NCBI GenBank assembly: GCA_017480485.1
Contig: JAFVAN010000028.1
Coordinates: 12,299 to 76,298 of the forward strand
Direction: 5' to 3'
DNA: 64,000 nucleotides
Source of the DNA: Ruminococcus sp.
GTDB taxonomy: Bacteria; Bacillota_A; Clostridia; Oscillospirales; Ruminococcaceae
The notes beneath the pieces are model-generated. The model saw nothing but the letters and a program-made list of their open reading frames with translations. It was not told the DNA's origin and did not search any database. Positions 1 to 18,040 of the stretch are shown here, one piece after another. The translations under genes and the position numbers were made by a program. Numbering within the stretch: the first letter of the stretch is position 1; each line of letters opens with the position of its first letter.

Positions 1-203
1 CTTGAATAGATCATACTGCACCAATCGGAATGGAATCTGCCGTTTGAATCGGTGTTCTTGAAAAGGCGGTTGCCGTCCTCGTCAAGCTGTCCGCTTTCCT
101 CTGCGTAATCGTTCGCAGACACGGCAAAATCATCACGGTAGATAAAGTCATTTCCCGTGTTGTAGGGCGGGTCTATAAAGACGCTGTCTTTGATACAAAC
201 AGA
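1..203 (-). pseudogene. Type III-like adenine methyltransferase (Mod) fragment, runs off the left edge
   Basis: Reading the minus strand from about 191 to 1 gives an open frame with the catalytic motif IV of amino-adenine methyltransferases, DPPYNTG (codons at about 153-173). It continues NDFIYRDDF and, further on, NGRFHSDW, a stretch characteristic of type III Mod subunits. Mod proteins of this kind normally have roughly 130-150 residues before DPPY. Here the sequence upstream of about position 191 does not look like a Mod N-terminus and runs into a hairpin, so the gene appears to lack its 5' end. It points the same way as the helicase and DUF4391 genes at 18563-22227, the usual partners of this Mod type. 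The rest lies outside the window. The family call is confident; the 5' truncation is inferred. Confidence 0.72.
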
Positions 204-246
204 AAAAGCCTTCTCTGGCACATAAGTGCTGAAAAAGGCTTGAAAT

Positions 247-408: not shown

Positions 409-1104
409 TCACACATTTATCTTTAGACTCGACCAAATGAGCGGTTCTCCGTCTTTAAGTTTAATGGCCACGCCTTTTACTACCATTCCTTTTTCTATAC
501 AGTTATGAAATGCATCTCGGTAAGTGATTAGTTCATTGTTAAGTGTCAATTGTTTCACCTTTGGGTTTAAAGAAACAAAAACATAGCAAGCCCGATATCC
601 TTTTTCTAATAAGTCCTCAATCTTCATCAACTGATCAACCGCTCTCTGCGAATAGACTGATGGAAACTCAGCTTCGCCACGAAAAGATAGAATACTTTTG
701 ATTTCTACAACTGTTTTTGTGTCTTCAATATACAAATCACTCTTATACCCAGCAATCGTACACTCTTTTTTGATACTACTCCTCTTACCTAAAATAGCAA
801 ATCGTCGGCTATGAATATTGTCTATCACTACCTTATTTGCTTTTGACATATTTAGCAAAACAAATTCATGCCCGACAGCCAATGCTTCTACCGAGTATTT
901 TGTTCTAGCATCAGTTGCTGCTACTGGTGAAAGCAAAACCGTTTTTCCTGCCATGCTTACAAAATTACTGAGACGGCATGAAGAAGGAATATAACAGAGA
1001 GTATCCTCCCCATCAACCTCAACAAGGCATAAAAACCTATTCTTTAATTCTTCCTTAAATATGCCTCGTTTAAATGACAGATTAGACACTCTCTGCTTCC
1101 TCAC
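409..1104 (-). CDS. SfsA-like PD-(D/E)XK nuclease, last gene of the defence operon
   Basis: A 231-aa protein with the layout of the SfsA family: an N-terminal beta-barrel-like part (residues 10-80; compare KNRFLCLVEVDGE and the later SVEALAVGHEFVLLN) and then a restriction-nuclease-like core. The core has D123, E134-x-K136 and a following helix that contains an SQRAVDQL segment. SfsA proteins are about 230 aa and are DNA-binding or nuclease-like; in E. coli SfsA is linked to sugar fermentation, but here the protein is the distal gene of a defence operon. The frame opens with GTG at 1104, 7 bp after the previous stop. A second GTG at 1089 has better spacing to an AGGA motif and may be the true start. 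Nuclease activity is inferred from the motif only. Confidence 0.7.
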   Translation of the reverse strand: MRKQRVSNLSFKRGIFKEELKNRFLCLVEVDGEDTLCYIPSSCRLSNFVSMAGKTVLLSPVAATDARTKYSVEALAVGHEFVLLNMSKANKVVIDNIHSRRFAILGKRSSIKKECTIAGYKSDLYIEDTKTVVEIKSILSFRGEAEFPSVYSQRAVDQLMKIEDLLEKGYRACYVFVSLNPKVKQLTLNNELITYRDAFHNCIEKGMVVKGVAIKLKDGEPLIWSSLKINV

Positions 1105-1111
1105 TTCAACA

Positions 1112-4100
1112 TTATGACTTTTTATTAATTACGTTACTCACAATTTCGTCCAGTTCCGGAATCTCGATAAGGTATCCTTGTGCCCTTTCAATAACATCAC
1201 CGTTTCTATAGATCATGTCGCCGTGCTTCTGAAGGTATTGCGCATCCGGAACCTCAATGATCATCCTTGATGAAATCCCGTCATTTACTCGGAGAGCAAC
1301 ACGACCATTCAACTGTGCTTTAGTTGTTGAAGGTACTAGTTTTGCTTCTGGCCTCTGTGTGCAGATGACTAAATGTATTCCTCTGCTTCTGCCAGTTTGA
1401 GCTATTCTCTGAACAGGTTTATAGAATGCATTCTGTTCTTTTTTAGTCTCAAGTTGATCTGCCAGATCAGCAAATTCATCAATTACGACAACTATAGGAG
1501 CCAACTTTTCCGATGCAACTTTGTTGTATTCTGCAATATTTGCAACTCTGGCTTCCGCTAACAGTTTACCTCGACGCTCAGATTCCTCGAAGATTACATC
1601 TTTAATCACGCGGGTGGCCTCTATAGCATCAGATATGATTCCTCCAGAATAAAGGTGGGGCAACCCCTCAAAGTGGATAAAATCCTCCAGCTTTGATGAG
1701 GAAAGAACCAATTGAAGCTCGTTCGGATTAGGATGGGTCATCAGCATAGCCGCAAGCATTGTGAACAGAAATACTGATTTTCCCGAACCTGTGCTGCCAC
1801 CGACGAGCATGTGTGGCATCTGACCGAGATCCTCAATCAAATCCTTCCCGTTCGGTGTTCTTCCCAGCGGGAAGTATAACTGCTCCGGTGAAGTCACATT
1901 AGGAAGATGAGCAATGACATCCTTAAAAAGGACCTTTTCTCTCTTTAGCCGAGGCACATCTAAGAGCAACTCATCAGAATTCGGCACCTGTTGGATAATT
2001 ACACCGGTACGTTTCATTTCTCTTCCGATATCCTCTAGATGACTCGACAATCCCTGAAGTGACTGGCCTCTTCCAAGTCTGAATTTGAGCCGTATTACGC
2101 TTGGCCCAACAACTGTATCCTCTGGATTACATTCCTTGAGAGACACATGATAATCCCCGCATGAACGCTTAAAATCCTTAACCAGCTGTTCAATCTCCTT
2201 GCGACTAACACCATTGTTGGTATCATCTTGAGCCGCAGGAGGCTCGCTAACTGATTGCTCTTTCTTTTGCCCATATTGGACAGTCTCTTCAGCAACCTTC
2301 GGCAATCCAGTGGAATTTACTGACGTGGAGGTTAAAACATCCGGTTTCTCCGGCTGGCGCACTCCAGTCGCATCAGAGGACGCATCCATATCTGTATCAA
2401 TTATCGCATCCTCTGAATCAGTCTCCCCTGATGCAGAATCCTCAGATTCATCGAAATCAGGCGTAAACGCTTCCTTAATGAGAGTACCCTCACCAAGAAT
2501 ATCACGTTGGATTTCCTTAGCAGTCAGCTTCCAATAATCAATTCTGCAGTCATCAAATTCCGGATTCTTACATGAGATATGCTCTCCACCAACCGCTTCG
2601 TTCAATTTGATGTGCAAGAGCAGACCGGTAACAACTATGTTCAAACCGCCTTCATTCTCACTGCTAAAGGCTTTTTTCAGTATCTGATACCATTTCTTCT
2701 GCCAGTCAGAGTCATGCACATTACGGAAGCATTCAGATACTATCTGGTACTTCAGGACTTCTCTGCGAGCAGAGGTGAACATATCCATCTGATTATCATC
2801 TGCAGTAAAGATTTCACGCAGGATTTCAATCATCGATGCGATCTGACCAGCTGCATGTCCTGTAATAAGGAAGGACTTCGAATCTGAATCATCCCTTGTT
2901 ATTGTTGCATCGGGTGACTCGTCCCTCGTTTTTACCTCAATCGGTTCAATGTGAAGAGTATTGGATGCCTCATCATAATACAAACCGACCAGATCAGCAC
3001 GTTCATTTCCGTATTTGCTATTCTGAAGCCATAAACGTGCTTTATCATCATCGAGAGATGCTACAAGCGCATCATCGTGCTGCTTCATATACCATGATGC
3101 AGCAAAGAGGGTTCCAATCAAGCCTTTCTTCTTGTTATCCACAGCCTGTGCATCAGCACCAAACTTCGGAATACTAATCAAACCGTTTGATGCAACGTGA
3201 CCAAACTGGCGTAGTATTTCAATAAGCGTTTCTGTTTTGGGATATAAATTGTAACCACGCAGTAAAGTCAAATACTGCGAAATGATCCTCGAATCATCAG
3301 CAGCCCAAGCATTAACCATCCGCTTGTCATACTGCATCTCGCCAATCGGGATTGATGCTACAGGCTGATAATTATTCGTATCCCTGTCAGCAACAACAAG
3401 CCACTGCGTTTGTCTGTCCTGAATCGTAGAAACAACCGCAGTCATATCAGCATTCCCATTATAGGTAGTCCGCGGATTCATATTGTTGCTTATGATATCC
3501 GCAGATCTCATGAGCTTATGATAGTCACCAATAAGACCGGAATCCATTTCTGAGGAAGGATAAATACTGCCTCTGTGCTGAATTTCGTCAAAATCATAAT
3601 CATAGGTTATGACCAACGGGTTAATATAAAGATTGTGGCTGTTCGGGCCAAATTCAATAGCATAAGAAGATTGGTCGAAGTAAAACGCAACGTGTACCGG
3701 CCTAAAATCAAGCGCCGCCTTAACATCTAAGGAAGATCGCACATTCCGAACACTTATAGAAATACGGTCATTCCGAATGTACTCACCAATCTCATAGTCC
3801 TTACCAGAATAATCCAACTTCGACAACTCGGTATTGCCGTTTTGATTACGTGTCAAATAAACATCATAGACGACTCTCTTGACCGAATTCTTGTCCATGA
3901 AGCTCTTTATCTGGCGTATGTTCCCTATCAAATCTGGCGCATCGACGGAGCACACCCTGACCTCGTTCCTTGTGTACGGAGCAAATCCTACCCACCGAGT
4001 CAATATTTCTTCAATCGATTCGGTCCCATCGTTGCCAAGATAACGGTTGGTCTTGTTTTCAAAGGTTGGCAGCATCTCGACACTACCGGAGCACGGTAAT

Positions 4101-5878
4101 AATCGGTCCTCTGTGGTGGCAGTAACGATGCTATTTGCAACGACAAAGCTCAAGACCTGTGGAAGTTGAGAAAGGACCTTGGACAGAGCTGCCTTATCTT
4201 CATCGCTGAGTGTTGCCTTCTTGTTTGGCAATGTCCGGAAAACTTCGTAGTATCTCCAAAGATACACTGGATGAAGCGGTAACAGTACAGCCTTCCACTC
4301 CTTAGGCGTTCTTATGTAAAGCACATCTAGAAGCAGAATGGCTCTGGCAATAAAACTTGTACCGCCAGCGCTGATCTGACGCATAGTAGGCTCATTAACA
4401 CAGAAGGCATGATATAACTGTTCCCATGCTTTTATATATTCGATAAGATTTGCTCTATTCTCTTCGGATGCTCCGAACAGAAGCACCGGATGATACATAA
4501 TCATATCAAGGTTCGAGAATAACTTTTTGCGCTTCTCTTTTAGATTGGTGATAATCGGTGAAAACCGTTCTGCAGTCTCCAGCCCCTTGCTATCAAACTG
4601 AGAATCAAACTGGATAATAAAATCGAACAATGGCTGACTACCGTCGATTCCTCCAGCAAACGCAACCACTGATTCCTTGTCATCAGGATCAAATACACGT
4701 ATTTCATTAATATCCGCGGAGATGGCATCCTTGAGCACAGTTTCGTCTGTCTCCATAATACCACCCCAGACAGTCGTGCTACAGAACTTACCAACGAGCT
4801 TACGAAGGTCCGTTTGATGTGATTCCAGCACTATACTGCGATCTCCAAAAACGCCTCCAATAGTCGGAATCGAGTCGTCATTCTCCTCGGTTTCTGTATC
4901 ATAGTGCTTTCTCAGTTCATCGAGAAGATCACGGATATTTTCCTGATCTTCCTCATCTCCAAATACTACAGCATCAGAAATGATTCGATCTAACTCCTTG
5001 GGCCGGATAGGAGTGGTATCAACTTCTTCAGGCGCATTCGGAGTTTCACCGTTTGGTGTTGGATCTTCTTTCTTTTTCTTTTTTTCAGTTTTTTGGGATG
5101 CAGAAAATAGTTCCTGAACGGTTTCAAGATCAAGAGCCTTTATTGTATCGCGATTTCCATACTTATAAAGGTTCTGAAGACTACGATACGCCTTCTGAAG
5201 ACGCTCCTTGTCCTTTGTCTTTGCTCTGACAAGGGCGCGGCTTAACTTCTTTCTGGAGTCCTCGCTCAGTTGGCCAATGGCGAAAATCAAATCCCGATTC
5301 TTTGCGAGACGCTCAACCGGATTGCTTTTCGATCCTAAGATTTCGCTATCCTCCAGCAGATTTAGCCTCCACATATTATGCGGAATAGCCTCTGCAGGTT
5401 TGTCACTTGCTACAACAGCAGATACAAAATCATACAGGGCATCGAAGGTGTAATAGTCGGAGGTATCCTGAAGTGCGGTCCAAAAATTATTCGTTGGGGT
5501 ATTGTTATCGTTATTAATTTGCGTTTCAACCAGATAACGAGCAGTATCTCTCGTGGTTATAACCTCAAATTCCGCCAGAGAATGCAACTTGTCGGTATCG
5601 TTTCTAATGAAAACGATAATGCTTCCTGCACATTCAGGCATACTGCGCCACAGGACGGCCTTCTCGATAGAACCGGTAATATCATACAACTCGTCGGAGT
5701 GTTCAATCACTTCATCATAGCCTATTGCTGCAGCATACAAATGCTTTTCCTCTGAAGCTATTGCTTTAATGATTTCTTCAGGGAGGATATCGTCTACACC
5801 CTTAACGATTATTCCGACTTTTATTTCAGAAAGATGCCTGCAAAGAAGAGCAGTAACCAACTCTTGCTTGTTCATCAT
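1112..5878 (-). CDS. DptH/DndH-like giant protein: internal PD-(D/E)XK-like site plus C-terminal FtsK/HerA ATPase
   Basis: A 1588-aa protein. The C-terminal 300 residues are an FtsK/HerA motor: Walker A GGSTGSGKS near residue 1360, Walker B PIVVVIDEFADL, and a following RGIHLVICTQRPE segment. The long N-terminal part has no recognised fold. It contains a lysine-rich linker (about residues 265-275) and, at about 955-980, RADLVGLYY...IEPIEVKTR, which fits the D...ExK site of PD-(D/E)XK nucleases. Size, C-terminal motor and position after two partner genes resemble DptH/DndH of the phosphorothioation-dependent restriction module DptFGH. The ATG at 5878 overlaps the preceding stop (ATGA) and has GGAGGTG upstream. 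A motor that couples DNA translocation to cleavage is inferred. Confidence 0.72.
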   Translation of the reverse strand: MMNKQELVTALLCRHLSEIKVGIIVKGVDDILPEEIIKAIASEEKHLYAAAIGYDEVIEHSDELYDITGSIEKAVLWRSMPECAGSIIVFIRNDTDKLHSLAEFEVITTRDTARYLVETQINNDNNTPTNNFWTALQDTSDYYTFDALYDFVSAVVASDKPAEAIPHNMWRLNLLEDSEILGSKSNPVERLAKNRDLIFAIGQLSEDSRKKLSRALVRAKTKDKERLQKAYRSLQNLYKYGNRDTIKALDLETVQELFSASQKTEKKKKKEDPTPNGETPNAPEEVDTTPIRPKELDRIISDAVVFGDEEDQENIRDLLDELRKHYDTETEENDDSIPTIGGVFGDRSIVLESHQTDLRKLVGKFCSTTVWGGIMETDETVLKDAISADINEIRVFDPDDKESVVAFAGGIDGSQPLFDFIIQFDSQFDSKGLETAERFSPIITNLKEKRKKLFSNLDMIMYHPVLLFGASEENRANLIEYIKAWEQLYHAFCVNEPTMRQISAGGTSFIARAILLLDVLYIRTPKEWKAVLLPLHPVYLWRYYEVFRTLPNKKATLSDEDKAALSKVLSQLPQVLSFVVANSIVTATTEDRLLPCSGSVEMLPTFENKTNRYLGNDGTESIEEILTRWVGFAPYTRNEVRVCSVDAPDLIGNIRQIKSFMDKNSVKRVVYDVYLTRNQNGNTELSKLDYSGKDYEIGEYIRNDRISISVRNVRSSLDVKAALDFRPVHVAFYFDQSSYAIEFGPNSHNLYINPLVITYDYDFDEIQHRGSIYPSSEMDSGLIGDYHKLMRSADIISNNMNPRTTYNGNADMTAVVSTIQDRQTQWLVVADRDTNNYQPVASIPIGEMQYDKRMVNAWAADDSRIISQYLTLLRGYNLYPKTETLIEILRQFGHVASNGLISIPKFGADAQAVDNKKKGLIGTLFAASWYMKQHDDALVASLDDDKARLWLQNSKYGNERADLVGLYYDEASNTLHIEPIEVKTRDESPDATITRDDSDSKSFLITGHAAGQIASMIEILREIFTADDNQMDMFTSARREVLKYQIVSECFRNVHDSDWQKKWYQILKKAFSSENEGGLNIVVTGLLLHIKLNEAVGGEHISCKNPEFDDCRIDYWKLTAKEIQRDILGEGTLIKEAFTPDFDESEDSASGETDSEDAIIDTDMDASSDATGVRQPEKPDVLTSTSVNSTGLPKVAEETVQYGQKKEQSVSEPPAAQDDTNNGVSRKEIEQLVKDFKRSCGDYHVSLKECNPEDTVVGPSVIRLKFRLGRGQSLQGLSSHLEDIGREMKRTGVIIQQVPNSDELLLDVPRLKREKVLFKDVIAHLPNVTSPEQLYFPLGRTPNGKDLIEDLGQMPHMLVGGSTGSGKSVFLFTMLAAMLMTHPNPNELQLVLSSSKLEDFIHFEGLPHLYSGGIISDAIEATRVIKDVIFEESERRGKLLAEARVANIAEYNKVASEKLAPIVVVIDEFADLADQLETKKEQNAFYKPVQRIAQTGRSRGIHLVICTQRPEAKLVPSTTKAQLNGRVALRVNDGISSRMIIEVPDAQYLQKHGDMIYRNGDVIERAQGYLIEIPELDEIVSNVINKKS

Positions 5879-7371
5879 TTTTCAGCACCTCCTAACCTAA
5901 TCTGCAAAATGCCATCTGCCATAAGCTCAGCGAAATCCATCGATTCGAGCATTGATGCAAATGATGAAAAATTCTCATCCAGAGCGTCCTCGTCAATCTG
6001 AAGAATCATGCCACTTTCCTGTAAGGTCTGCATTTCAAACTGGCTTCCTCCAACAATAATTCCGAATCTGTCCCATAGGCGTCGTCTGATATCCATCCCG
6101 CTAATCATTTCTCCCGGATTCACGCAGCACCTCAGGAGCATTTCGATAATATCCTGTGAAACAAAAAATCTTTTGTTTGGGTGGAGTTTGTCAGGCGGAT
6201 ATAGAATACCCGAAAGATTACCCAATGCTCGCAGGTAGGTGATCGGATGGGACGAAGCTTCCAACGCAAGCATATCGTACATGGTCTCTCCAAAGGTCAA
6301 ATACATCTCTTCGCCTTCAAGATCCGTTGCTCGCTCCTTGGCCAATAGCCATAGAGCATCCAATTCTTCTTTGCTTGCCTTCGAGACGGCCTTCCTTTCT
6401 TCATAAACGGGCGTTTCTGACTGAAGCAATTCTTTTTTACTGTATCCCTTCTCATCAAGCCATCTTGCGTAGCCCCATGCATAAAACCTGTTGATCGATT
6501 TGTAAATCTGCGTATACGACATCTCTGATGCACGAGCAACGCTACTAAAGCTTGGGCTGACTCCACTAAAGTCAAGAAGGATAGGCCGTATGCGTTCGCC
6601 ACAGTAAAACGCTTCAAGGAGTGTCATGTACCTCATCAAGCTAAAGACACAGAAGAAGTTAAACAGCCTCAATTGTGTTAACGGATTTGGATGATTTCGC
6701 AAGTTGTTCAGCAGGCAGGTGCCGCCATCCTTTATTCCGTTAAGAAACCACTGCGTACGTTCATTAATGTCCTTGAAGGCAGGAATGTCCTCATATTGAT
6801 TCTGATCGGAGAATACCTCCATATCAGCCTCAAGGACCGGTTCAAACAGCAAGGTAATAGGGTCACTGGCTTGCTCAAGAAGATCCCGGATATAGCTGGC
6901 CAATTCAGGACAATATCCTCTAATAATGCTGCCTATAAACTCCCCACCACGCTCATAAGGTGCTCCTGTACCGCTCGTCAGGAAGTACTTTGATCCAGCA
7001 GAATAAGAAATCATACTATCGTTCAAAGCGCTTACCACAAAGACGCCCTTGTCTACGGACAGGAGCCGCTGCATTACATTTCTCATTGACTCAACCGAGT
7101 TGAGAGTAATATTGTCCTCAATCACTTCATTCTCGGCAAGCTGGTCATAAATCGTTTCAGCTTCGTTACCCTTTGGGACATTTCCCTTTGAATCGGATAC
7201 AAGAGCCATTCTCTTTATGTTTTTACTCCGATTAAATGACCCGTAGATGCAACGCTGCGCACCAGATGCTATATGCACAGGTTTGACTGATCCGCTGTTC
7301 GGTTGGAAGCCGACATATTTTCTATCGACCTCCTGCCGTGCTGTTTTGAGAAAGATCTGTTCCATATACAT
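5875..7371 (-). CDS. Unrecognised 498-aa defence-operon protein in the DptG position
   Basis: I do not recognise a domain with confidence. The protein is soluble, with no signal peptide or membrane span. The C-terminal third is helical and charged and could hold winged-helix-like segments (around MSYTQIYKSINRFYAWG, residues 285-305, and PGEMISGMDIRRRLWDRFG, residues 420-440). It is translationally coupled on both sides: its ATG at 7371 shares a base with the upstream TGA, with AGGAGG four bases before the ATG, and its own stop overlaps the next start. The gene order ATPase, this gene, FtsK-like ATPase matches dptF-dptG-dptH, so it may be the DptG-like adaptor. That assignment rests on position and size only. 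Confidence 0.5.
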   Translation of the reverse strand: MYMEQIFLKTARQEVDRKYVGFQPNSGSVKPVHIASGAQRCIYGSFNRSKNIKRMALVSDSKGNVPKGNEAETIYDQLAENEVIEDNITLNSVESMRNVMQRLLSVDKGVFVVSALNDSMISYSAGSKYFLTSGTGAPYERGGEFIGSIIRGYCPELASYIRDLLEQASDPITLLFEPVLEADMEVFSDQNQYEDIPAFKDINERTQWFLNGIKDGGTCLLNNLRNHPNPLTQLRLFNFFCVFSLMRYMTLLEAFYCGERIRPILLDFSGVSPSFSSVARASEMSYTQIYKSINRFYAWGYARWLDEKGYSKKELLQSETPVYEERKAVSKASKEELDALWLLAKERATDLEGEEMYLTFGETMYDMLALEASSHPITYLRALGNLSGILYPPDKLHPNKRFFVSQDIIEMLLRCCVNPGEMISGMDIRRRLWDRFGIIVGGSQFEMQTLQESGMILQIDEDALDENFSSFASMLESMDFAELMADGILQIRLGGAEK

Positions 7372-10300
7372 CAAACCTCCTGCCCACGTTCACTCTCAAT
7401 TCCAGAATACTTTTTGTCCTCTCGATCCACAGAGACCATAACAGTCCTTTTATTCTGGACATCTAGCAATCCGACATCGACTGTATCCTCGTCGTCAATT
7501 TCCTCGAAGGATTGAAGCTGTTCGATAAAGCGCCACACCTTTTTCACCAGATCAGACTCCATGAAAAGAACTGGAACTCCTCGTTCGGCTTCGTTCATGA
7601 GAAGATACATTTCATAATCAACTTTGAGGAATATATCAGGTGCGTCCTTCTTCTCCAGCCTTATGTAGTTCGAGGTCATATCGATACCGGCCTGCATACT
7701 TTTCAGCAGGGACGGTCGTCCGACGCTGAATTCGCTCTTCTTTATTGTTCCGGCTGAAATGAGCACCTTTCTCGGCTCATTGTTATATCGATGCCCAGAC
7801 CAAATCTGCAGTTTGGTATTCGAGCCATTAACATTCCCGAAAAAGCTATTCAGTTTAGAAATAAGCTCCTTGATTATCTTGCCACTATCCTGATTCAGGA
7901 AATTCTGAAAGCGTGTTGCATCATCGTCTAAGATAGTCAGAAGTTCATCACCATTCAAATTAAAGAAGAAAAACTGGCGTTTCCGAAGATTAAACAAAGC
8001 TTCATTATCATACGCAATTGATTCAGCGGGCACCTCATAGCCTTCAACCCATGATGCTGGATCTATCGAGTTAAGAAGAATTCTCTCGTCCCAGATCGGA
8101 TGTGAAATGTTAACAGGATCAATGGCGCTATTGATTGCTGTAAACAAATTACCCGTTCCCGAATAAATGAGGTTTACCAAATCATACTCGCTGTTTCCGG
8201 CAGTTTGATTAAGTTGCTTGCAACTTCTGTTTCCAAATATCAGATATACAATAAAGCTCTGCAACTCACGAAGTGTAGCGTGATAGCCCTGCAAAGAAAC
8301 TCGCTGCAAAATTATGCCCAAGCGTTCCTGAAATAGAGCGTTGTTTAACATCCTTCGGTTTTTGTTCACAACGCAGGAGTCATATAGCGGGCATTTTTTG
8401 CACTCCTTGTAATGATCCTCAGCAGTCATCTTTGAAATGGCCTGCTTTAGTATCTCTCCGGTCAGAGCCTCTCTTTTGCTCAAATCAAACACAACCAGAT
8501 CCTTTGACTCATGAGCTTCTTCATGAAAAACAACCGCATGAAGCATCTGGGTGTACGCTTCCTTAATAGGTTCAAAGTCAGGGAAAGCATTGTACACCGA
8601 ATAAAGAACTGCGGCATTAATCGCTATAACAAATGGGGCGTTCTTTTTTCTCGCAGCAAGCCACGCTTGATAAATCTGATCGTTTGATAGTGTGCTGGCA
8701 TCCAATTCCACAACAGCTGGTGTAGATAAATGCTCAAGCTTTGATTTAAGCATTCTAATAATGTGTGTTTTTCCGTCGCCGGGATTCCCCGTCAACACAA
8801 TATCCTTTCCATCTTTAGCAGCCTTAATAATTGCCTCATCAAGCTTTGTTGTCAGATGGATATAGGACAGCAGTTCCTCGTCTACGTGGTCAGCATATGC
8901 GCTGGTACCGCGATAGAAATCTCGGATAAATTGCAATCCCACCTTCTTTTCATCGTTAACAGGCATATGTGATACCTCCTTTAACTTTATAAACGGTCTC
9001 GGTTCACTGTCTTTTATCTGGTTACCAACCATAAAACTTTCCTTGTCAAAGCCACGTATGCGCTCATATATCGGTGCATAATTTAGTCGACTTGAGAGCC
9101 ATCTTGTTGTCCAGTAGTCGATGATTTTTTTTGTGCCTTCTTGATAATGGTTAACATCCGTATAATATCGTGGTGATGTGTCCTTACCCATTAAATATTC
9201 CAGCGTATTTGTAGCAAGGCACGCTCCATAAACAATACGAGACATTGCATGCTTAGAGAAGTCTTTCGAATCTTCATTTGTTGATTCAAGTAGTTCCCTA
9301 ATGGACATCGTTAAAAGCCGCATCTTAGGACTTGCGCCTTCTCCGAAGACATGATTAATTCGGTTAAAACCATCGCTCGTCGCCTCAGTTAAACTAAGCG
9401 TGGTTGCTTTGCTAATATGCATGGTTCCAAATCCGATGGTCATTCCAAGTTTTTTCCACACAACATCAAAATCAGAACCAAAGACGCTACCGGGAATCTT
9501 CAAGCGATTGTATTGGCTAGAACCCACATAGTACAAGGATGTTGTTCCAACATATACCAAATCCGCTGGCCTAAACACATCTTGGCCCTTCAGTCGACTT
9601 GCAATCATGCTAGCTCTATTAGAGTATCTTTCCTTGTAATCATGGATAACTTGAGGTGAAGTTGCCAGCAAAGCTACCAACTTCCCTCCAAGAATTTCAT
9701 TGTATGGAGGTATTGCGCCACAGACATTCAATTCCATCAGGCTTGAACCAATATGCTGCGTTTTCTGAGCAACAAGGGCGCTTCTTATCGCGGAGTTTCC
9801 GTTTTCACTCCTGCAAAAGTCAGCCCAGATCTCGCCAAAGTTTGAAGAATTATATACTTCCAGAATTGCCTTTTTTGCCATAAGAAGACGGGCGAGTTGT
9901 TCAGCTCTTTTTCTCCTATAAAGAGCGTCTTCAGTTTCCTTGGAAATACTTCCAAGTTCACTTTTTTCATCTTCTTCGATGCCCTCCTCTAACGCCTCCT
10001 TGAGAAGTTCCTGCCGCCTTTGTTCAGCGCTATTAGCAAAATCGAGAAGTTGTTGCACATCTTCATCGCTTGGATTATGCACGGTTGCATCAGTACATAA
10101 TGCAGTGTAATCTATCCCGTTGATGCCAATTTCAAGATATTGAAGCAATTTTTCAAACTCTTTTCGGGCTTCAATGGCGCTAAGCATGGTTATCCTATCG
10201 ATAAACGCCTTTTGATTCCAGCCTATATAGTCATCTCTGCAAGTGATCTGAACTGCGCAGTTTTCTAGCGAAGCAATTCCCATCACAGCGTGCATCGGAT

Positions 10301-10961
10301 GTGCTGCGTCGCGGATTAGATATTGCATTGTTCTCCCCGGTGTCGTTTCCGCAGGAGTTGACCAAGTTAGCCGAAAGTATCTCCAAATCTCTGAGGTTTT
10401 TATACCGGTAAAATCATCCCGCTCGTTCTCTACAACGAGCTGCAGGTATGGGCGGACCGCCTCTGATAATTTTATTTCTCCATTATGTGCTCGCTCCAAG
10501 CGAATGGCTAATTCTTCTCCATCAGCAATCAGCTCGCTTATGTCATGATTGCTTGTGTTATTACGCTCCATACGTTGGATAAAATCGATATAAGATGTGA
10601 GCCTTTCATGCCTACTTTCGCTCATCCAACTTCTTAGTAGCTTCTTAACCTCTGGTGAGGATACATCGTGCAACTCCGCACCGTTTAAACTCGGCAAACT
10701 CATATACAAAACGCCATCACGGTAACAAGCCTTCCACGAAGCTCTTGTAAGATCACGAAAAAGCATCCAAACGGCTCTATACTTTTTTCGTTGGCCTAAA
10801 TTATAAGTGCATACTTCTTGTACCCAATTTATCTCATTCATACAGATCTGCTCGATCTGTAATGGCGAAGTTTCTTCATTTATACAGGATACTGCAGTAT
10901 AAAACCTGATTCTAAAATCTCCTTCTAGCTTCGGCCTAAAAGGAATCTCTCTATTTAACAT
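7371..10961 (-). CDS. DruA-like DUF4338 domain fused to a DptF/DndF-like P-loop ATPase
   Basis: A 1196-aa two-part protein. Residues about 130-600 resemble DUF4338 (DruA of the Druantia anti-phage system): the block PPYNEILGGKLVALLATSP, then RPADLVYVGTTSLY, VGSSQYNRLK and GFGTMHISK, in the order usual for the family. Residues about 640-1190 form an ATPase with Walker A GNPGDGKTH near 724-732, a cysteine cluster CKKCPLYDSC near 852-862, and a C-terminal beta-rich part. GNPGDGKTH plus a Cys cluster is the pattern of DptF/DndF-type restriction ATPases. The ATG is at 10961, after AGAGGT, 40 bp downstream of the XRE gene. Joining a DruA module to a DptF-type ATPase is the most unusual architecture of this window. 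Domain calls come from motif recognition, not a profile search. Confidence 0.72.
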   Translation of the reverse strand: MLNREIPFRPKLEGDFRIRFYTAVSCINEETSPLQIEQICMNEINWVQEVCTYNLGQRKKYRAVWMLFRDLTRASWKACYRDGVLYMSLPSLNGAELHDVSSPEVKKLLRSWMSESRHERLTSYIDFIQRMERNNTSNHDISELIADGEELAIRLERAHNGEIKLSEAVRPYLQLVVENERDDFTGIKTSEIWRYFRLTWSTPAETTPGRTMQYLIRDAAHPMHAVMGIASLENCAVQITCRDDYIGWNQKAFIDRITMLSAIEARKEFEKLLQYLEIGINGIDYTALCTDATVHNPSDEDVQQLLDFANSAEQRRQELLKEALEEGIEEDEKSELGSISKETEDALYRRKRAEQLARLLMAKKAILEVYNSSNFGEIWADFCRSENGNSAIRSALVAQKTQHIGSSLMELNVCGAIPPYNEILGGKLVALLATSPQVIHDYKERYSNRASMIASRLKGQDVFRPADLVYVGTTSLYYVGSSQYNRLKIPGSVFGSDFDVVWKKLGMTIGFGTMHISKATTLSLTEATSDGFNRINHVFGEGASPKMRLLTMSIRELLESTNEDSKDFSKHAMSRIVYGACLATNTLEYLMGKDTSPRYYTDVNHYQEGTKKIIDYWTTRWLSSRLNYAPIYERIRGFDKESFMVGNQIKDSEPRPFIKLKEVSHMPVNDEKKVGLQFIRDFYRGTSAYADHVDEELLSYIHLTTKLDEAIIKAAKDGKDIVLTGNPGDGKTHIIRMLKSKLEHLSTPAVVELDASTLSNDQIYQAWLAARKKNAPFVIAINAAVLYSVYNAFPDFEPIKEAYTQMLHAVVFHEEAHESKDLVVFDLSKREALTGEILKQAISKMTAEDHYKECKKCPLYDSCVVNKNRRMLNNALFQERLGIILQRVSLQGYHATLRELQSFIVYLIFGNRSCKQLNQTAGNSEYDLVNLIYSGTGNLFTAINSAIDPVNISHPIWDERILLNSIDPASWVEGYEVPAESIAYDNEALFNLRKRQFFFFNLNGDELLTILDDDATRFQNFLNQDSGKIIKELISKLNSFFGNVNGSNTKLQIWSGHRYNNEPRKVLISAGTIKKSEFSVGRPSLLKSMQAGIDMTSNYIRLEKKDAPDIFLKVDYEMYLLMNEAERGVPVLFMESDLVKKVWRFIEQLQSFEEIDDEDTVDVGLLDVQNKRTVMVSVDREDKKYSGIESERGQEV

Positions 10962-11001
10962 GGCAGGTTACCTCTTTTCATCTTTTCTTTAAAAGGCATC
11001 A

Positions 11002-11232
11002 TTAATTACCTGCCTTGTCATCTATTGCATCATCAGGGACTATTTCACAAATATCCGCGATATCGCACTTCAATTCTTCACATATTTTTACTAAAACGTC
11101 TGTGGTGACGTTGGCACCTTTGCCGAGTTTGGCAAGGGAAGCCGAACTAATCTTTGCATTCTTAGCAAACTCTGTTTTCTTCAAATCACGTTCAACAAGC
11201 ATTACCCATAGTTTTTTATAAGATAGTTTCAT
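11002..11232 (-). CDS. Small XRE-family helix-turn-helix regulator
   Basis: A 76-aa single-domain Cro/CI-type protein. The helix-turn-helix lies at residues 17-45 (KTEFAKNAKISSASLAKL) and the C-terminus ends in the usual CDIADICEIV segment. Regulators of this size and form often sit inside restriction or defence operons and control them. The ATG overlaps the stop of the ABC ATPase gene (ATGA), with AAGGAG upstream. It separates the ABC-3C genes from the Dpt-like genes within one transcription unit. A likely target is the palindrome at 14518-14536 in the operon leader; this is inferred. Confidence 0.85.
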   Translation of the reverse strand: MKLSYKKLWVMLVERDLKKTEFAKNAKISSASLAKLGKGANVTTDVLVKICEELKCDIADICEIVPDDAIDDKAGN

Positions 11233-13061
11233 AATGACTCCTTCGGGAGATCTTTTCTCCAGCTTGGCATAAAACCGTAAATGTGACCGTCCTTCTCGTC
11301 TTTGTGATATGTTACTACATTAATTCCCTTCGCCTTAAAATCTATATCTTCTGGGATGACATTCAGGTTATCAACGATGATAACCTGCCCATTGCCCTGA
11401 TGATTGATAAAGTACTGGTACAGGCCATTCTTTATCGTGTTGTCGCCAAATTCGTCTTCGTTTTCATCAAAACCGAGCAGCGGTGTATCGACCATAAGGA
11501 ATCCGGGCTTAATGAACACATCATCGCTGTTGAAATATTCATACAGCATCAGCGCGACAACAGAATTCAGGAAGGACCGATAACCCTTCCCTTGATCCTC
11601 TGATTTTGGCACGCCATCCATCAAAATATCGAAGGTACTAAAGTCCCAGCTGGCATAACCGGCATTCCGGTAGTTGCACTCTTTCAGAATCTTGTTTAAG
11701 AGTACGTTAAAGCCGGTGCCAACTTCCTCCTCAAATTCCTGCTTTGCATGGTAGAGAGGAGGATTTTTTTGTTTTTGCAGTTCTGCAACTTTTTTCTGGC
11801 CAAGGATGGCAAGCTGATCGTTCACGAAGTCAATGCCGGTCTGAAGCGTCGTATAATCCTTAAAGCGCTGCAGGCCGGACCTATAGTTCTGTATCTCACG
11901 ATTCTTATCATCGAGAGCTTTATTAACCTCAGCTCTGCGCAACTGCAATTCTTCGATATTTTTCCTGATCGACTCTTGTTCATCACGAACGCTGTTTTCT
12001 GTTGCAGCAATAACTGTTAGTTCGGAGGCTATTCTCTTGATCTCGGCATTAATTGCTTCCAAGTAGCTGTCATCGTCTTCCGGGTGCAACTCCCCACCGC
12101 AGAACGGACACACCCCGTTTTCCGGGAGTCCTTTTACGGCTTGCTCACCCTTTGAAATAAAATCAAGTCTCTGCAGGTCAGCTTTATACTGGCTGATTAG
12201 GGATTCATATCGATCCAAAAGTACACGACAATTAGCGTCCCCTTGCTGATACTCAGCCATCTGACGAACGATAGCGGCATTCTCTTCAATCAGCTCTTTG
12301 ATTTCCTGCTGGACCTCCTGAATATGGTCCGAAAGCTCCTGCATCTCTTTTTCTATATCTAACCCAGCCAGCTCCTCAAGCTGCATAATGTAGCTAACGC
12401 GTTTTTCCGTTAGAGAAGCAACCTGCTCCTCAATATAATCGATCACAGCTTTCTTCTTGGCAGTAGCCACTTCCGGTTTAGTGATCTCAGGAATTCCTTT
12501 TTTGTAATCCCCGGTGAGCAGAAAGTATAAAGACGCAATAAGCGGCGTCTCATATCTCTGATCCTTGATCACGATAGACTCCGACTTATCAATTTCGTTC
12601 TCATCGGCAAAGAAAACGCTGGCGATGTTAGTCCAAGACATGCGTTCCCTCGCATAGCGAGCAGTCTTAGGCACTTCAATCGTCTCATCAAGACCGATTA
12701 TTCGCAGCCACAGATCATTCAGGTAGTGAAGGCTGGTCTTTTTATAATTGGTATCATATTCACCATCTTCGACTTCATCGCTTTCAGCAACAACCGTAAC
12801 CTTCTCTTCGTCGAGTTTTCTGGAAATGGTTATCCTGCCATATCGCTTCGTCAGGAAAACTCCCTCAATATCCGTATAACCTGTCAGCGGAGAAAACGGT
12901 CTCGTGTCGGAGCTGAAAAGATAATAAATACACTTGAGTATCCACGTTTTTCCGGTGTTGGAGCGTCCTTGGATAATGTTCAGCCCATCGGTAAAGTTTA
13001 TAACACCGTCAATCTTTCCGGGTCCGGATACACGCAGTCTCTCGATCATAAAACTATGCAT
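11229..13061 (-). CDS. ABC-three-component system SMC/Rad50-like ABC ATPase
   Basis: A 610-aa ATPase of the SMC/RecN/Rad50 class. Walker A GRSNTGKT is at residues 32-39. Long coiled-coil arms (about 195-300 and 335-420) flank a zinc-hook-like CPFCGG near 319-324. A signature-like region (GKGYRSFLNSVVALML) precedes Walker B FLMVDTPL near 520, followed by QVIIVDN. This arrangement is typical of the ATPases of ABC-3C conflict systems, in which an ABC protein senses an invader structure and licenses an effector. It lies 2 bp after the middle-component gene, as expected for such a triad. Biological role in phage or plasmid defence is established only for the class. Confidence 0.82.
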   Translation of the reverse strand: MHSFMIERLRVSGPGKIDGVINFTDGLNIIQGRSNTGKTWILKCIYYLFSSDTRPFSPLTGYTDIEGVFLTKRYGRITISRKLDEEKVTVVAESDEVEDGEYDTNYKKTSLHYLNDLWLRIIGLDETIEVPKTARYARERMSWTNIASVFFADENEIDKSESIVIKDQRYETPLIASLYFLLTGDYKKGIPEITKPEVATAKKKAVIDYIEEQVASLTEKRVSYIMQLEELAGLDIEKEMQELSDHIQEVQQEIKELIEENAAIVRQMAEYQQGDANCRVLLDRYESLISQYKADLQRLDFISKGEQAVKGLPENGVCPFCGGELHPEDDDSYLEAINAEIKRIASELTVIAATENSVRDEQESIRKNIEELQLRRAEVNKALDDKNREIQNYRSGLQRFKDYTTLQTGIDFVNDQLAILGQKKVAELQKQKNPPLYHAKQEFEEEVGTGFNVLLNKILKECNYRNAGYASWDFSTFDILMDGVPKSEDQGKGYRSFLNSVVALMLYEYFNSDDVFIKPGFLMVDTPLLGFDENEDEFGDNTIKNGLYQYFINHQGNGQVIIVDNLNVIPEDIDFKAKGINVVTYHKDEKDGHIYGFMPSWRKDLPKESL

Positions 13062-13063
13062 CC

Positions 13064-13510
13064 TTACGCCTCCTTTGACTCCGTAGCCCTATCGCTTATG
13101 TACTGCAATACGCCTTCATCCGTGTAATTTGAAAAGCGCCTGCACACTATTTTTGCGCCGACAACATATGCTTTCGCGTAGGGCGACTGCACTCCTTGCA
13201 CTACTTGTCTGCCGCGATCATTAATGCTGTATAAGAAGCCCTGATCTGTATGCTCCACTTTGAAAAAATCATTTCTGACCGAGAGCTTAACGGCCTCGGT
13301 TATTTTTTCGCGCTTGTTTGTAAACTCAGCAAAACCGAACTCATTATCTCCATGAAGGTTTTTATCCAGCACCTTACACTTTTTCCCGTAGATACAGATA
13401 AAATCCAGAGCAGCAAGCCTATCCACGTTTGCAGGTGCATTTAAGGTATCCGCCAGTAGGAGAAGCCGCAGCATGTTCTCGAATGTTGTATTAAAAACCT
13501 TACTCCGCAT
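13064..13510 (-). CDS. ABC-three-component system middle component
   Basis: A 148-aa protein, translated from the ATG at 13510, resembling 'middle component 2' proteins of ABC-3C systems. It has an N-terminal helix with the pattern LLLADTLNAPANVDRLAALDF, then a positively charged centre and a winged-helix-like C-terminal part (GFLYSINDRGRQVVQ). Middle components link the ABC ATPase to the third component. The start overlaps the upstream gene by 11 bp; an in-frame TTG at 13519 is an alternative start. The position between the C-terminal component and the ATPase is the standard order. Confidence 0.75.
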   Translation of the reverse strand: MRSKVFNTTFENMLRLLLLADTLNAPANVDRLAALDFICIYGKKCKVLDKNLHGDNEFGFAEFTNKREKITEAVKLSVRNDFFKVEHTDQGFLYSINDRGRQVVQGVQSPYAKAYVVGAKIVCRRFSNYTDEGVLQYISDRATESKEA

Positions 13511-14501
13511 ACGGATCAACCCACGATGTCATCGTCTTGTCGTTCACCAGAATATGAACAATACCAAGCCTTTCCAAATTTCCTATTAGGTTCTTTATCA
13601 GAGACAACTTCGACTTTGTCAGTTGAACGTCCGAAATCTTCTTCAGGACCTCAAGCAGTCGTCTATATCCGTTATCGTAATCATCAAAGAATGTGGTCTT
13701 GATTCCATCGTATGCATCTGCCTTTAGGATATCAAACTGGTTCTCACCATCTTCGTATACTTCACTGATAGACCGCTGAATGCTCTCTGCGCTGAGATAC
13801 GCCTTGCGCTGATCATAAAAGTTCGTTTGATACTTCTTCGGAAGTGCAGGTATATCATCTACCGTTACCGAGTCACGAGATAAGGCTTCCGCATAGGCGT
13901 CACATAAAGCGGAAATGTAATCAGCTTCAAAATCATAAATCTGTGCATCGCTCAGTTTGATCGGTAGTTCAATAACATCTCCGTCGATATATAGCTTTCC
14001 ATCCTCGCAGTAGATTCGGTCTCCTGCGAGATTTTTTATGCTCGGCTTTGGATCGTGGATCGTGAGTTTGATGTCTACATCATGGATACCCTTGGCCAGA
14101 CCATGAAAAATCTGATCAAGAATGTCCTGAATGGCAGATCCCAATTCATCTAACTCCACGTCAATTCCCTTTGTGTAAAGGAATTTCTGTAAATGCTCCT
14201 TACTGCCGTCGAATAGCGCGTCAATTTGATCCGCAATATCCGCGCCGTCGTAAAGGCTACAAATCATTCTCGCACGAGCTTTTGAAATGTATTTATCCCG
14301 GCCCTCAAATATCTGGTCAAGCATGTTATCAGATATGTTCTTCTCCATCGGATTGTACTCGTGAAGGTACTGAGCCTGATCCTCTTCATCTGTCATAGGA
14401 GGGCGCAGCGAAAGACCAACTAACGTGCAGACAAATTTGCCTCCGCGTCCAGTTGGTTCCATAAGTGTTTTTAGTTCTCCAGCTATCTCATGGAAATACA
14501 C
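13500..14501 (-). CDS. ABC-three-component system C-terminal component (first gene of the defence operon)
   Basis: A 333-aa helical protein whose partner genes and sequence style (start of the type MYFHEIAGELKTLMEPTGRGGKFVCTLVGLSLRPP) fit the third component of ABC-3C systems. No catalytic motif is obvious, and the N-terminal 100 residues may hold the effector or DNA-contact part. The frame opens with GTG at 14501, with AAGGAG 11 bases before it. It is the promoter-proximal gene: the leader carries the palindrome at 14518-14536 and the promoter at 14624-14652. The family call is moderately sure; its effector type is unknown. Confidence 0.62.
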   Translation of the reverse strand: MYFHEIAGELKTLMEPTGRGGKFVCTLVGLSLRPPMTDEEDQAQYLHEYNPMEKNISDNMLDQIFEGRDKYISKARARMICSLYDGADIADQIDALFDGSKEHLQKFLYTKGIDVELDELGSAIQDILDQIFHGLAKGIHDVDIKLTIHDPKPSIKNLAGDRIYCEDGKLYIDGDVIELPIKLSDAQIYDFEADYISALCDAYAEALSRDSVTVDDIPALPKKYQTNFYDQRKAYLSAESIQRSISEVYEDGENQFDILKADAYDGIKTTFFDDYDNGYRRLLEVLKKISDVQLTKSKLSLIKNLIGNLERLGIVHILVNDKTMTSWVDPYAE

Positions 14502-14517
14502 TACTGCTCACACTCCT

Positions 14518-14547
14518 TTTGACCTTTTAGGTCAAAGCATGGTCAAA
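14518..14547. promoter_or_regulatory. Perfect palindrome plus extra half site, probable operator of the defence operon
   Basis: TTTGACCTTTTAGGTCAAA (14518-14536) is an 8-3-8 perfect palindrome. A third GGTCAAA half site follows at 14541-14547. It lies in the leader between the promoter and the first start codon, where a bound repressor would block transcription. The operon's own XRE protein is the natural candidate. Confidence 0.65.
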
Positions 14548-14623
14548 CGCATTTTCGACTGATCAGGCCCTTCTCAGTACAATAAAGACGATCAGTTCTT
14601 GCTGATGGAAAAGTTCCTTTGAA

Positions 14624-14652
14624 ATTATATCACAGATTTTAGCGTTTCGCAA
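14624..14652 (-). promoter_or_regulatory. Sigma-A promoter of the defence operon
   Basis: On the minus strand there is TTGCGA at 14652-14647, a 17-bp spacer and TATAAT at 14629-14624, preceded by TG in the extended -10 position (TGATATAAT). It leaves an untranslated leader of roughly 115 bases before the GTG at 14501. Confidence 0.7.
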
Positions 14653-14955
14653 TCTCTTTTGAACCTTCGCTAATAAAAATTTTGTGAACGCAAAGAAAAA
14701 TTTCCTAGACAAGATGCTGATTCAGTCCTGAGTACGACAAAAACTGCTCACCGTCAGGGGCTGCACCGACTGATCACCTGTGGCTCAACGGTTCCTGACG
14801 GCCACAAGTAAATATCATCAGCTGCCTTTTGAGCGGGAAGCTGCAGACCGGAACGGAGAAACCTCCGTCGGGACTGTGGTTGGATTTCTATACCCATTTG
14901 CAGCTGACCATGAAGGTTTCCTCCGTTCCAAGCAAATCGAACGGAGGAAATTTTC
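14653..14955. other. Intergenic boundary between defence operon and phage remnant, with an inverted repeat
   Basis: No gene is supported here. GGAACGGAGAAACC (14850-14863) is inverted at 14915-14929 with one extra base, so the leader of the sigma-like gene can fold into a hairpin. The GGAGG at 14943-14947 is the ribosome site for the ATG at 14956. Base composition shifts here from AT-rich on the operon side to GC-rich on the phage side. Confidence 0.55.
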
Positions 14956-15456
14956 ATGCAAAACAACGACAAGAAGTACTTTATCCCGGTCGACGGGACC
15001 CCTATCGAGGTCAGCGAGGAAGTTTACAGGGCATACTACCAGCCCATCTGGAACACCCGCTACCATGCCCAGAAGAACGGCGAGTGCCGCTGCACCAAGG
15101 CCCAACTTTGGAAGTGTGACGGTGTTTGCCCCGGCTGCCCGTTCTACGCTGCCGGTAAGAAGGTTTCCATCGATACGCCTATCGGCGGCGAGGAAGACGA
15201 GCTTACCCTTGGCGACACGCTGGCCGACGACGCACCTTCTGCGGAGTCCATCCTTATGGACAAGGAACTGCTCGGCGCTCTATACGACGAGCTGAACCGC
15301 CTTGACCCGGACGGCAGACGCATCTGCGAGCTTATCATGCAGGGCAAGACGGAGCGTGAAATCGCTGCCGACATGGGCAAACGCCAGTCGACCATCAACT
15401 ATCAGAAGAACAAGGTGTTCTCCATCCTGCGTGAAGCCCTGAAGGACTTCATCTAA
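14956..15456 (+). CDS. Sigma-70 region 4-like protein of phage or element origin
   Basis: A 166-aa protein. Residues 35-60 hold a cysteine cluster (CRC, then C-x3-C-x2-C) that could bind zinc. Residues 100-165 are a sigma region 4-type helix-turn-helix (LDPDGRRICELIMQGKTERE followed by IAADMGKRQSTINYQKNKVF). Proteins of this kind open the early gene block of many Clostridia siphophages and integrative elements, where they probably drive element promoters. It has a strong ribosome site 8 bases before its ATG and starts a plus-strand cluster of phage-type genes. Confidence 0.7.
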   Translation: MQNNDKKYFIPVDGTPIEVSEEVYRAYYQPIWNTRYHAQKNGECRCTKAQLWKCDGVCPGCPFYAAGKKVSIDTPIGGEEDELTLGDTLADDAPSAESILMDKELLGALYDELNRLDPDGRRICELIMQGKTEREIAADMGKRQSTINYQKNKVFSILREALKDFI

Positions 15457-15597
15457 TACCCAACAAAGGCCGCCGTGGAAGCAATTCTGCGGCGGTCAAA
15501 AATTTTTCAGATTTTTTTCGTTCAAAACACCGGTTTCCCTCCAGTGGGTACTGAGGACAGCAAAACAACACAGGTCCTCAGAAAGGAGGAACCGCCA

Positions 15598-15807
15598 ATG
15601 AGTGAGTCCAGACCCAACAAGGCCGTCACCGATGAAGAGCTCATCGGAGTGCTTACGGCAATCAGCGTAGTGTCAAGACGTCTGGCGAAGAAGCTGATTC
15701 AGCTGAACCAGACAAGCCAATCTCAGGAAGGAGGAAAACGTGATGAGCAAAACGAGCGAAATGGAAGCGACCATCAGGGAGTTGCGGGATATTGCATCTT
15801 CTATTAA
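15598..15807 (+). CDS. Small phage-type protein of unknown function
   Basis: A 69-aa protein from the ATG at 15598, preceded by AAAGGAGG. The first 40 residues (DEELIGVLTAISVVSRRLAKKL) form an amphipathic helix pair; the tail is polar. The end overlaps the next gene by 65 bp, as happens in compact phage genomes. Small proteins like this commonly sit just before the DUF2800/DUF2815 pair. Function unknown. Confidence 0.5.
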   Translation: MSESRPNKAVTDEELIGVLTAISVVSRRLAKKLIQLNQTSQSQEGGKRDEQNERNGSDHQGVAGYCIFY

Positions 15808-16051
15808 CGACATCGCCAACTGGCTGACCGGCGCATTCAGCGGCACCGAGGAAGCGGCCCCTTCTCCGGAACCGGAAAAGGCACTCACCCTCGAAGAGGT
15901 CAGAGCGATTCTGGCAGAAAAGTCCCGTGATGGCTTCACCGCTCAGATCCGTGACCTTCTCCTGAAGTACGGTGCCAAGAAGCTCTCTGAGGTTGACCCG
16001 GCAAGCTACAAGGCTCTGGTAGCGGATGCGGAGGTGCTCGGAAATGCCTAA
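15743..16051 (+). CDS. Phage-type protein often labelled 'rRNA biogenesis protein rrp5'-like
   Basis: A 102-aa acidic protein. An N-terminal helix (residues 5-32, ATIRELRDIASSINDIANWL) is followed by a proline/glutamate linker and a C-terminal segment LTLEEVRAILAEKSRDGFTA that resembles a small helical DNA-associated domain. Homologues precede DUF2800 genes in Clostridia phages and are often named after rrp5 without evidence. AAGGAGG lies 9 bases before the ATG at 15743; a GTG at 15740 is also possible. The stop overlaps the DUF2800 start. Confidence 0.6.
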   Translation: MSKTSEMEATIRELRDIASSINDIANWLTGAFSGTEEAAPSPEPEKALTLEEVRAILAEKSRDGFTAQIRDLLLKYGAKKLSEVDPASYKALVADAEVLGNA

Positions 16052-17168: not shown

Positions 17169-17169
17169 T

Positions 17170-17742: not shown

Positions 17743-17755
17743 GGAGGTACGCACC

Positions 17756-17974: not shown

Positions 17975-18040
17975 TCTCTGGCCTGCGGGTGGTGGGAGCA
18001 ATCCTGCCACCCTGTCAGGCTTGGGAAAGGACCGGTGTGT

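Follow-up and report, generated by a model that had tools for sequence, protein, structure and literature searches.

The restriction subunits DndFGH and SspFGH are partnered by phosphorothioate genes (dndBCDE and sspBCD) and, according to PMC8092258, SspFGH damages DNA without phosphorothioate and harms cells that lack the mark. Rakesh et al. (2024; PMC10853773) already report both a decoupling of DndFGH from the dndABCDE modification genes and a fusion of DUF4338, a GNAT domain, to DndF. Here we describe an operon on a 64,000-nucleotide stretch of a Ruminococcus sp. contig (hereafter, the window) in which such a fusion, together with DndG, DndH and an SfsA-like protein, follows a Lamassu/ABC-3C triad and an Xre-type regulator. 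The eight genes form two modules, the LmuA-LmuC-LmuB triad and (Xre-)DruA/DndF-DndG-DndH(-SfsA). An initial annotation had taken them for parts of three defence systems joined in one unit; instead, DruA-DndFGH(-SfsA) is one recurrent restriction-type module, and the triad is a cassette separate from it. With about even confidence, we read the locus as a composite defence operon, in which an exchangeable ABC-3C/Xre sensor cassette is coupled to a mark-free DruA-DndFGH-SfsA restriction machine on a phage-type element. The coupling is observed as a recurrent gene order; functional dependence of the halves is our inference.

The genes are consecutive and contiguous on the minus strand (409-14501), successive genes overlapping by 4-20 bp or being separated by 2-40 bp, as initially annotated, and profile matches bear out the families assigned at that stage (ABC-3C triad, DruA/DptF fusion, DptH-like motor, SfsA-like protein). 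They encode, in order of transcription, an LmuA-type protein with a CTD6 domain (13500-14501, 333 aa); LmuC, the ABC-3C middle component MC2 (13064-13519, 151 aa; Pfam MC2 5.7e-35, PADLOC LmuC 9.8e-47); the Rad50/SMC-like ABC ATPase LmuB (11229-13061, 610 aa; PADLOC LmuB 5.5e-190 over residues 1-602); the Xre-type regulator (11002-11232, 76 aa), whose first 4 bp lie within the end of lmuB; the DruA-DndF fusion (7371-10961, 1196 aa); a DndG/SspG homologue (5875-7374, 499 aa); a DndH/SspH homologue (1112-5878, 1588 aa); and an SfsA-like PD-(D/E)XK protein (409-1104, 231 aa). Xre and DruA-DndF are 40 bp apart, a spacing that favours a single transcript.

The restriction half has the composition of DndFGH/SspFGH: a DndF core, a DndG assigned through its orthologues only, and a DndH with a nuclease motif and an FtsK/HerA motor. 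In the fusion, DruA (DUF4338) covers residues 1-650 (PADLOC 3.7e-117) and the DndF/SspF P-loop core spans about residues 655-1196, with an SspF match at 2.8e-18 in this C-terminal part and a Walker A motif near 724-732. The structure model of the DruA domain has a GNAT-like fold according to a second look with VIA; with Foldseek alone no match reached E ≤0.001, and a PDB profile search returned weak, unrelated rows only. The window's own DndG sequence matched no model and found nothing in a PDB profile search; of the 43 orthologues in its alignment, 20 have a PADLOC SspG (PDLC02799) match with E-values up to 0.1, the best being 2.7e-13. DndH matches PADLOC SspH (1.2e-66) and, through its C-terminal FtsK/HerA motor, Pfam FtsK (8.2e-32). 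Its residues D962, E981-x-K983 and Q1012 are kept in 43/43 aligned rows longer than 1300 aa, and the D, E and K of the SfsA-like protein (D123, E134-x-K136; Pfam SfsA 4.8e-15) in 32/32 rows longer than 180 aa. The latter protein scores 74.8 bits, under the NCBIfam SfsA equivalog cut-off of 126.45.

Compared with DndFGH/SspFGH, the operon keeps the order of the three homologous subunits, the PD-(D/E)XK and FtsK/HerA domains of DndH, and the P-loop core of DndF. It differs in that neither dndBCDE nor sspBCD is recognised among its eight proteins, and in the genes added to the family here, namely DruA (separate or fused), SfsA and often Xre, with ABC-3C in front of some loci. DruE and a methyltransferase are likewise unrecognised among the eight, in agreement with the initial annotation. 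Druantia type I shares DruA (DUF4338) with the operon, but DndFGH stands here in place of DruB, C, D and E: a PADLOC scan of seven operon proteins (for LmuB, its 25 best rows) gave no match to DruB-E, and the same library finds DruE1 at E 0 in two other loci (L049, L052). One of these (L049, 1313-12572) encodes DruC-DruD-DruE-DruA followed by an SfsA-like gene, so that the SfsA-like family accompanies type I Druantia as well. MADS resembles the operon in that mad7 is matched by 3/43 DndG orthologues and mad8 by DndH (1.8e-20), hinting that MADS may carry a DndGH-like pair; it differs in its methyltransferase, which is not recognised in the window operon, the other mad genes being covered by the PADLOC scan of operon proteins only. 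With SfsA itself, the window protein has in common both Pfam SfsA domains and the PD-(D/E)XK residues, but it is an operon-bound relative below the equivalog cut-off.

Literature term searches, whose coverage did not include the survey that introduced ABC-3C, yielded no description of ABC-3C coupled to DruA-DndFGH. The words SfsA, Lamassu and ABC-3C, and words beginning with Dru, are absent from the main text of PMC10853773, and PMC12458937 has no whole-word DruA, DndF, DndH or SfsA. The initial view that no described system has this gene set thus stands for the exact set in these searches, but published work already covers the fusion of DUF4338 to DndF and DndFGH decoupled from dndABCDE.

LmuA-LmuC-LmuB is a Lamassu/ABC-3C triad, with an SMC/Rad50-like LmuB ATPase, the middle component LmuC and a C-terminal docking domain in LmuA. 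It shares with Lamassu/ABC-3C/DdmABC the LmuB ATPase, MC2 and a CTD6 folded like the C-termini of solved LmuA structures. The differences are the Xre gene and restriction-type system behind it and the N-terminal domain of LmuA (about residues 1-140), which is all-helical in the structure model, unlike restriction-endonuclease-like LmuAs. Among the Foldseek and VIA rows shown for this domain there is no nuclease or other effector, an effector being still possible; Foldseek by itself found no match with E ≤0.001, nor did PDB profile searches with LmuA find any. The nearest relative with genomic context, L020, is a locus of a Clostridia metagenome-assembled genome (MAG; isolate name Lapin, presumably rabbit) from a sister species, with a DruA-DndF 98% identical to that of the window. 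Its LmuA (449-1447) is 64% identical to the window protein over residues 1-130 (83/130) and 97% over the remainder (197/203), suggesting fast evolution or recombination of the N-domain. A restriction-endonuclease-like LmuA occurs in an Xre-less Lamassu locus, L099, where it is immediately preceded by a gene labelled HsdM together with two neighbours of that gene.

Upstream of lmuA lie a promoter-like site, TTGCGA-17-TATAAT with TG (14624-14652, minus strand), and a leader palindrome, TTTGACCTAAAAGGTCAAA (14518-14536, minus strand), that adjoins the lmuA ribosome site; the palindrome TTTGACCTaaaAGGTCAAA starts 35 bp ahead of LmuA. Both the promoter, as a promoter-like site, and the leader palindrome of the initial annotation are found, but the whole region has no excess of promoter-like sites (6 vs a shuffle mean of 6.9). 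Similar promoter-like sequence was seen by eye upstream of lmuA in L020 and L092. The palindrome pattern recurs in 7 of 138 fetched loci, representing four distinct places besides the window (L020/L072, L092/L073, L131/L133 and L134). All are LmuABC cassettes followed by DruA-DndFGH, HKD/SNF2 or nothing, and the palindrome always lies a short way upstream of LmuA, which argues that it belongs with the ABC-3C part; we rejected it as a feature of the whole operon since it tracks LmuABC irrespective of the genes behind.

Genome loci of the restriction module, found by DruA peptides, number 63, with Muricomes intestini DSM 29489 (L002) and Anaerotruncus colihominis DSM 17241 (L015) among the natural carriers; L014, a 1472-aa chimaera of DruA/DndF and DndH, was left out of profiles and counts. 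DndF, DndG and DndH accompany DruA in 41 of the 44 loci with enough sequence, ranging from Clostridia to Halobacteria, and SfsA is present in 26 of 38 with room for it. The protein collection contains at least 1,133 relatives of the DruA-DndF fusion, but within one family, to which L005 belongs, just 4 of 397 genomes have a match to it; no match was found in 50,697 phage records. In one locus (L023, 13509-14900) a gene that by eye resembles a transposase splits the DndF portion of the fusion.

Forty loci have DndF and >3.6 kb of upstream sequence, loci with a short upstream not being judged. Among these, LmuABC precedes DruA-DndFGH in the sister species L020 only, and the halves recur apart; one fixed eight-gene system was rejected on these grounds. 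The same slot is occupied by another ABC-3C triad, CTD11-MC7-DUF2326 ATPase, in L002, L007, the viral contig L065 (these three near-identical in scores and coordinates), L003, L005, L006, L013 and L019. Either ABC-3C type lies upstream in 8/40 genome loci, the CTD11 type in seven of these (two of the seven near-identical), and in 0/19 loci with truly separate DruA and DndF genes. Where the two modules are coupled, the start of Xre lies inside the ATPase gene or shortly behind it, some 40-120 bp ahead of DruA. The Xre family also adjoins ABC-3C cassettes elsewhere, including ones without DruA, and its assignment to the DruA half only was rejected for this reason. In L019 an HTH_17 gene (9734-9949) takes the place of Xre after the ATPase; L121 has a similar gene, and the genes after it resemble an insertion element.

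CTD11-type ABC-3C has been coupled to DruA-DndFGH more than once. A single clade of all six linked ATPases, labelled by gene order and with L007 and L065 left out of the tree as near-identical to L002, is rejected by the approximately unbiased (AU) test (p-AU 7.9e-7); a clade of the L002 and L006 ATPases, a test chosen after the tree was seen, gave p-AU 5.1e-6. The L006 ATPase is sister (100/100) to that of L102, which precedes a cytosine-methylase/SNF2/Mod/Res cluster. The DruA-DndF tree places L005 and L006 together as sisters (100/100), while the L005 ATPase falls in another clade. This disagreement argues that the cassettes have been exchanged.

Two ATPases were searched in 391 genomes of the class of L020 (twice) and 398 of its phylum. 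The 30 places found gave 29 ABC-3C loci after omission of the sister-species genome, G020; L125 and L126, which have identical ATPases, were both counted. Xre lies next to the triad in 18/29, and the next same-strand gene belongs to a restriction-modification (R-M) system in 12/18 loci with Xre vs 0/11 without (Fisher p 0.0004, uncorrected for kinship). The labels HsdR/M/S, Mod, Res and SNF2 denote similarity to proteins of the same loci; Pfam supports those of ten proteins from six of the 12 loci. Directly after the Xre-bearing triad stand type I genes in L094, L101 and L106 and the cytosine-methylase/SNF2/Mod/Res cluster in L102; Mod, mostly with Res, follows the triad in L103, L110 and L123-L128, where Xre is upstream of the triad. 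Six Xre-bearing loci have no R-M gene: L100 and L104 end close to the edge of their contigs, a 378-aa gene of no assigned family is present in L122, and L092, L093 and L109 have none. On prophage-type contigs, LmuABC-Xre is followed by HKD/SNF2 in L131 (same contig as L133) and L134, and by a 555-aa gene in L135. By this count, DruA-DndFGH-SfsA stands in a position that elsewhere belongs to restriction systems. The association of Xre-bearing ABC-3C with R-M is new as far as we know, the ABC-3C-introducing survey lying outside our coverage. Of 26 CTD11-type rows, four have a complete HNH-like signature, and all four lack both Xre and R-M; the signature is found in 0/19 CTD11 partners with Xre; in this count the broken CTD gene of L106 was left out and L109 was labelled as lacking Xre although Xre is present.

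Absence of mark genes matters here because SspFGH is harmful without its phosphorothioate mark (PMC8092258). A few R-M protein similarities and a motif scan, by which remote families can be missed, found no methyltransferase in or beside the related DruA-DndFGH operons, with two exceptions: L020 has a fragment after SfsA, and L056 a DPPY-bearing frame next to DruA on a contig that ends before any DndFGH. DndC was sought in the genomes of 49/63 loci (the rest being mostly short contigs or lacking DndFGH) and exceeded the cut-off in 4/49, with any match at E 0.001 in 15/49. DUF4007, which is linked to Ssp, was sought in 20 of the 49 and found in 2/20. The sister-species genome G020 has neither DUF4007 nor DndC over the cut-off, with a weak DndC-like match at 3e-5. 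Since many of the genomes are incomplete MAGs, these absences are indicative only. The counts cover carriers other than the window's own genome, which may encode unlinked modification genes.

In the composite-operon reading, LmuA-LmuC-LmuB-Xre would be a Lamassu-type sensor cassette that brings along a promoter, leader palindrome and regulator of its own. The helical, adaptor-like N-domain of LmuA would replace the usual enzyme, so that LmuA would lack an executioner, and Xre would hold the operon down. The ABC-3C complex would meet abnormal DNA, for which ends or stem-loops have been proposed in Lamassu, and, once triggered, would release or recruit the restriction machine rather than fire a nuclease of its own. 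DndG might then recognise DNA and DndH translocate and cut it, with DndF as a nucleotide switch, DruA as a GNAT-fold acyltransferase-like domain and SfsA as an accessory nuclease. Elsewhere, type I, type III and HKD/SNF2 systems have the same or a different ABC-3C cassette in front of them, which argues that sensor and weapon are exchanged independently and suggests that bacteria exchange alarm and weapon in this way. More tentatively, there may be a sensor-only class of ABC-3C that has no nuclease of its own and commands the restriction machine behind it, be it type I, type III, HKD/SNF2 or DruA-DndFGH-SfsA; temperate phages would shuffle sensor and weapon separately, and the DndFGH-type machine would work mark-free because it is licensed by the ABC-3C complex.

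Several points weigh against the composite-operon reading. Neither ABC-3C type is present in 32/40 DruA/DndF loci with upstream room, so the restriction half does not need ABC-3C. The initial annotation had named usual separation of the ABC-3C genes as evidence against its proposal, and these 32 loci, with LmuABC in L020 only, bear it out in part, but the repeated coupling and the position in front of restriction systems speak against chance. LmuABC-Xre stands alone in L092, L093 and L132. In the Streptococcus phage phiStag1_20280_6_181, CTD11-MC-DUF2326-Xre is followed by IS66, with no annotated restriction gene in the stretch shown. The four HNH-intact proteins group in a single clade; a single event, in either direction, may therefore underlie the association of motif and coupling, and the HNH-like motif is also absent in L109 and L121, which have no R-M neighbour, and in L096, which has no Xre. 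Compact cargo slots could juxtapose unrelated defence genes, and the helical LmuA domain may be toxic. One alternative is a defence island in which LmuABC-Xre and DruA-DndFGH-SfsA are independent, self-sufficient neighbours that share a cargo slot and a transcript without functional link, as each half occurs alone and the slot beside phage replication genes holds several kinds of cargo. We regard this as possible, though short of probable: different ABC-3C types are repeatedly coupled at the same position with Xre between ATPase and DruA, the R-M association splits 12/18 vs 0/11 by Xre, and the HNH-like signature is missing in Xre-linked CTD11 proteins.

These last proteins also bear on a guard or back-up role, in which LmuABC would be an abortive-infection layer that fires only on restriction inhibition or accumulating DNA breaks, with the helical domain as toxin. 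That cassettes precede several unrelated restriction systems would suit such a layer, but the LmuA N-domain is predicted to be all-helical and the HNH-like signature is incomplete in Xre-linked CTD11, so that, a new toxin fold being possible, we consider this role quite improbable. Another alternative concerns the restriction half, which could be an ordinary SspFGH/DndFGH whose modification partner is unlinked, with a phosphorothioate or methyl mark made elsewhere in the genome. The harm done by SspFGH without phosphorothioate, as reported in PMC8092258, and the DndC (4/49) and DUF4007 (2/20) carriers point this way. It seems unlikely to us, given that 45/49 genomes have no DndC over the cut-off, 18/20 no DUF4007 and G020 neither, in assemblies many of which are incomplete and for these marks only. 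We retain the composite operon. It bears on the question of what protects self DNA from DndFGH-type machines where phosphorothioation is absent. Bacteria and archaea share the machine, in most cases with no such mark genes, and part of the family is tied to an ABC-3C sensor whose LmuA has an unusual N-domain, modelled as helical; elsewhere such sensors stand in front of ordinary restriction systems. Should that tie prove functional, Lamassu would act as a modular alarm besides a self-contained suicide system, and the plugging of sensing into restriction would be testable in one operon.

The locus of this gut bacterium looks like it sits on a phage-derived element. The operon has a G+C content of 42-45% vs 52-61% from 24 kb onward. 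Next to it, on the plus strand, a phage-derived stretch (14956-18550) encodes a sigma-like protein, an exonuclease (DUF2800), an ssDNA-binding protein and a tape-measure fragment (Pfam, PHROGs); DNA similar to it lies upstream in L013, L003, L064, L002/L065 and L019. A comparable arrangement is seen in phage phiStag1_20280_6_181, with DUF2800, DUF2815, polymerase, sigma factor, CTD11, a small protein, DUF2326 and Xre. In another phage, IMGVR 15682261 (Ca. Heliusvirales), a gene annotated as a methyltransferase directly follows the ATPase; the Christensenellales phage NatCom_6392 has an LmuB-like gene, with genes of no assigned family behind it. A complete LmuABC-Xre cassette in L132 (3510-7018) lies beside phage replication genes and has no same-strand restriction gene behind it.

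A second restriction-type cluster follows on the minus strand, with an HKD+SNF2 helicase gene (19000-22227; PADLOC C3a139 3.9e-123) and, after it, a truncated DUF4391 gene (18563-19000; DUF4391 positions 1-158 of 232). The SNF2 protein is 76% identical to the SNF2 directly after LmuABC-Xre in L131 and L134. At the other end of the operon, outside the module, a methyltransferase gene remnant with a FIDPPYNTGND motif (about 1-240, minus strand) is joined just before IDPPYNTG. It is not the L020 gene, an identity we rejected because it had no tblastn match at 1e-5 to any fetched locus: at that junction L020 carries a fragment of another methyltransferase (IDPPFNTG; 14720-16312), in two frames and then followed by a Res gene. 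The two loci thus share a junction before the IDPP(Y/F)NTG motif and continue into different methyltransferases, as if recombined at the motif. The simplest reading of these sequences would be that the LmuABC-Xre-DruA/DndF-DndG-DndH-SfsA segment inserted into, or recombined with, restriction clusters. At the far edge of the phage-derived stretch (18035-18560), the start of a phage DNA polymerase frame, identified by eye, runs into a tail tape-measure fragment (PHROGs). This is a recombination or assembly junction in a decayed phage segment, and the join at 18.5 kb may alternatively be a metagenome assembly error.

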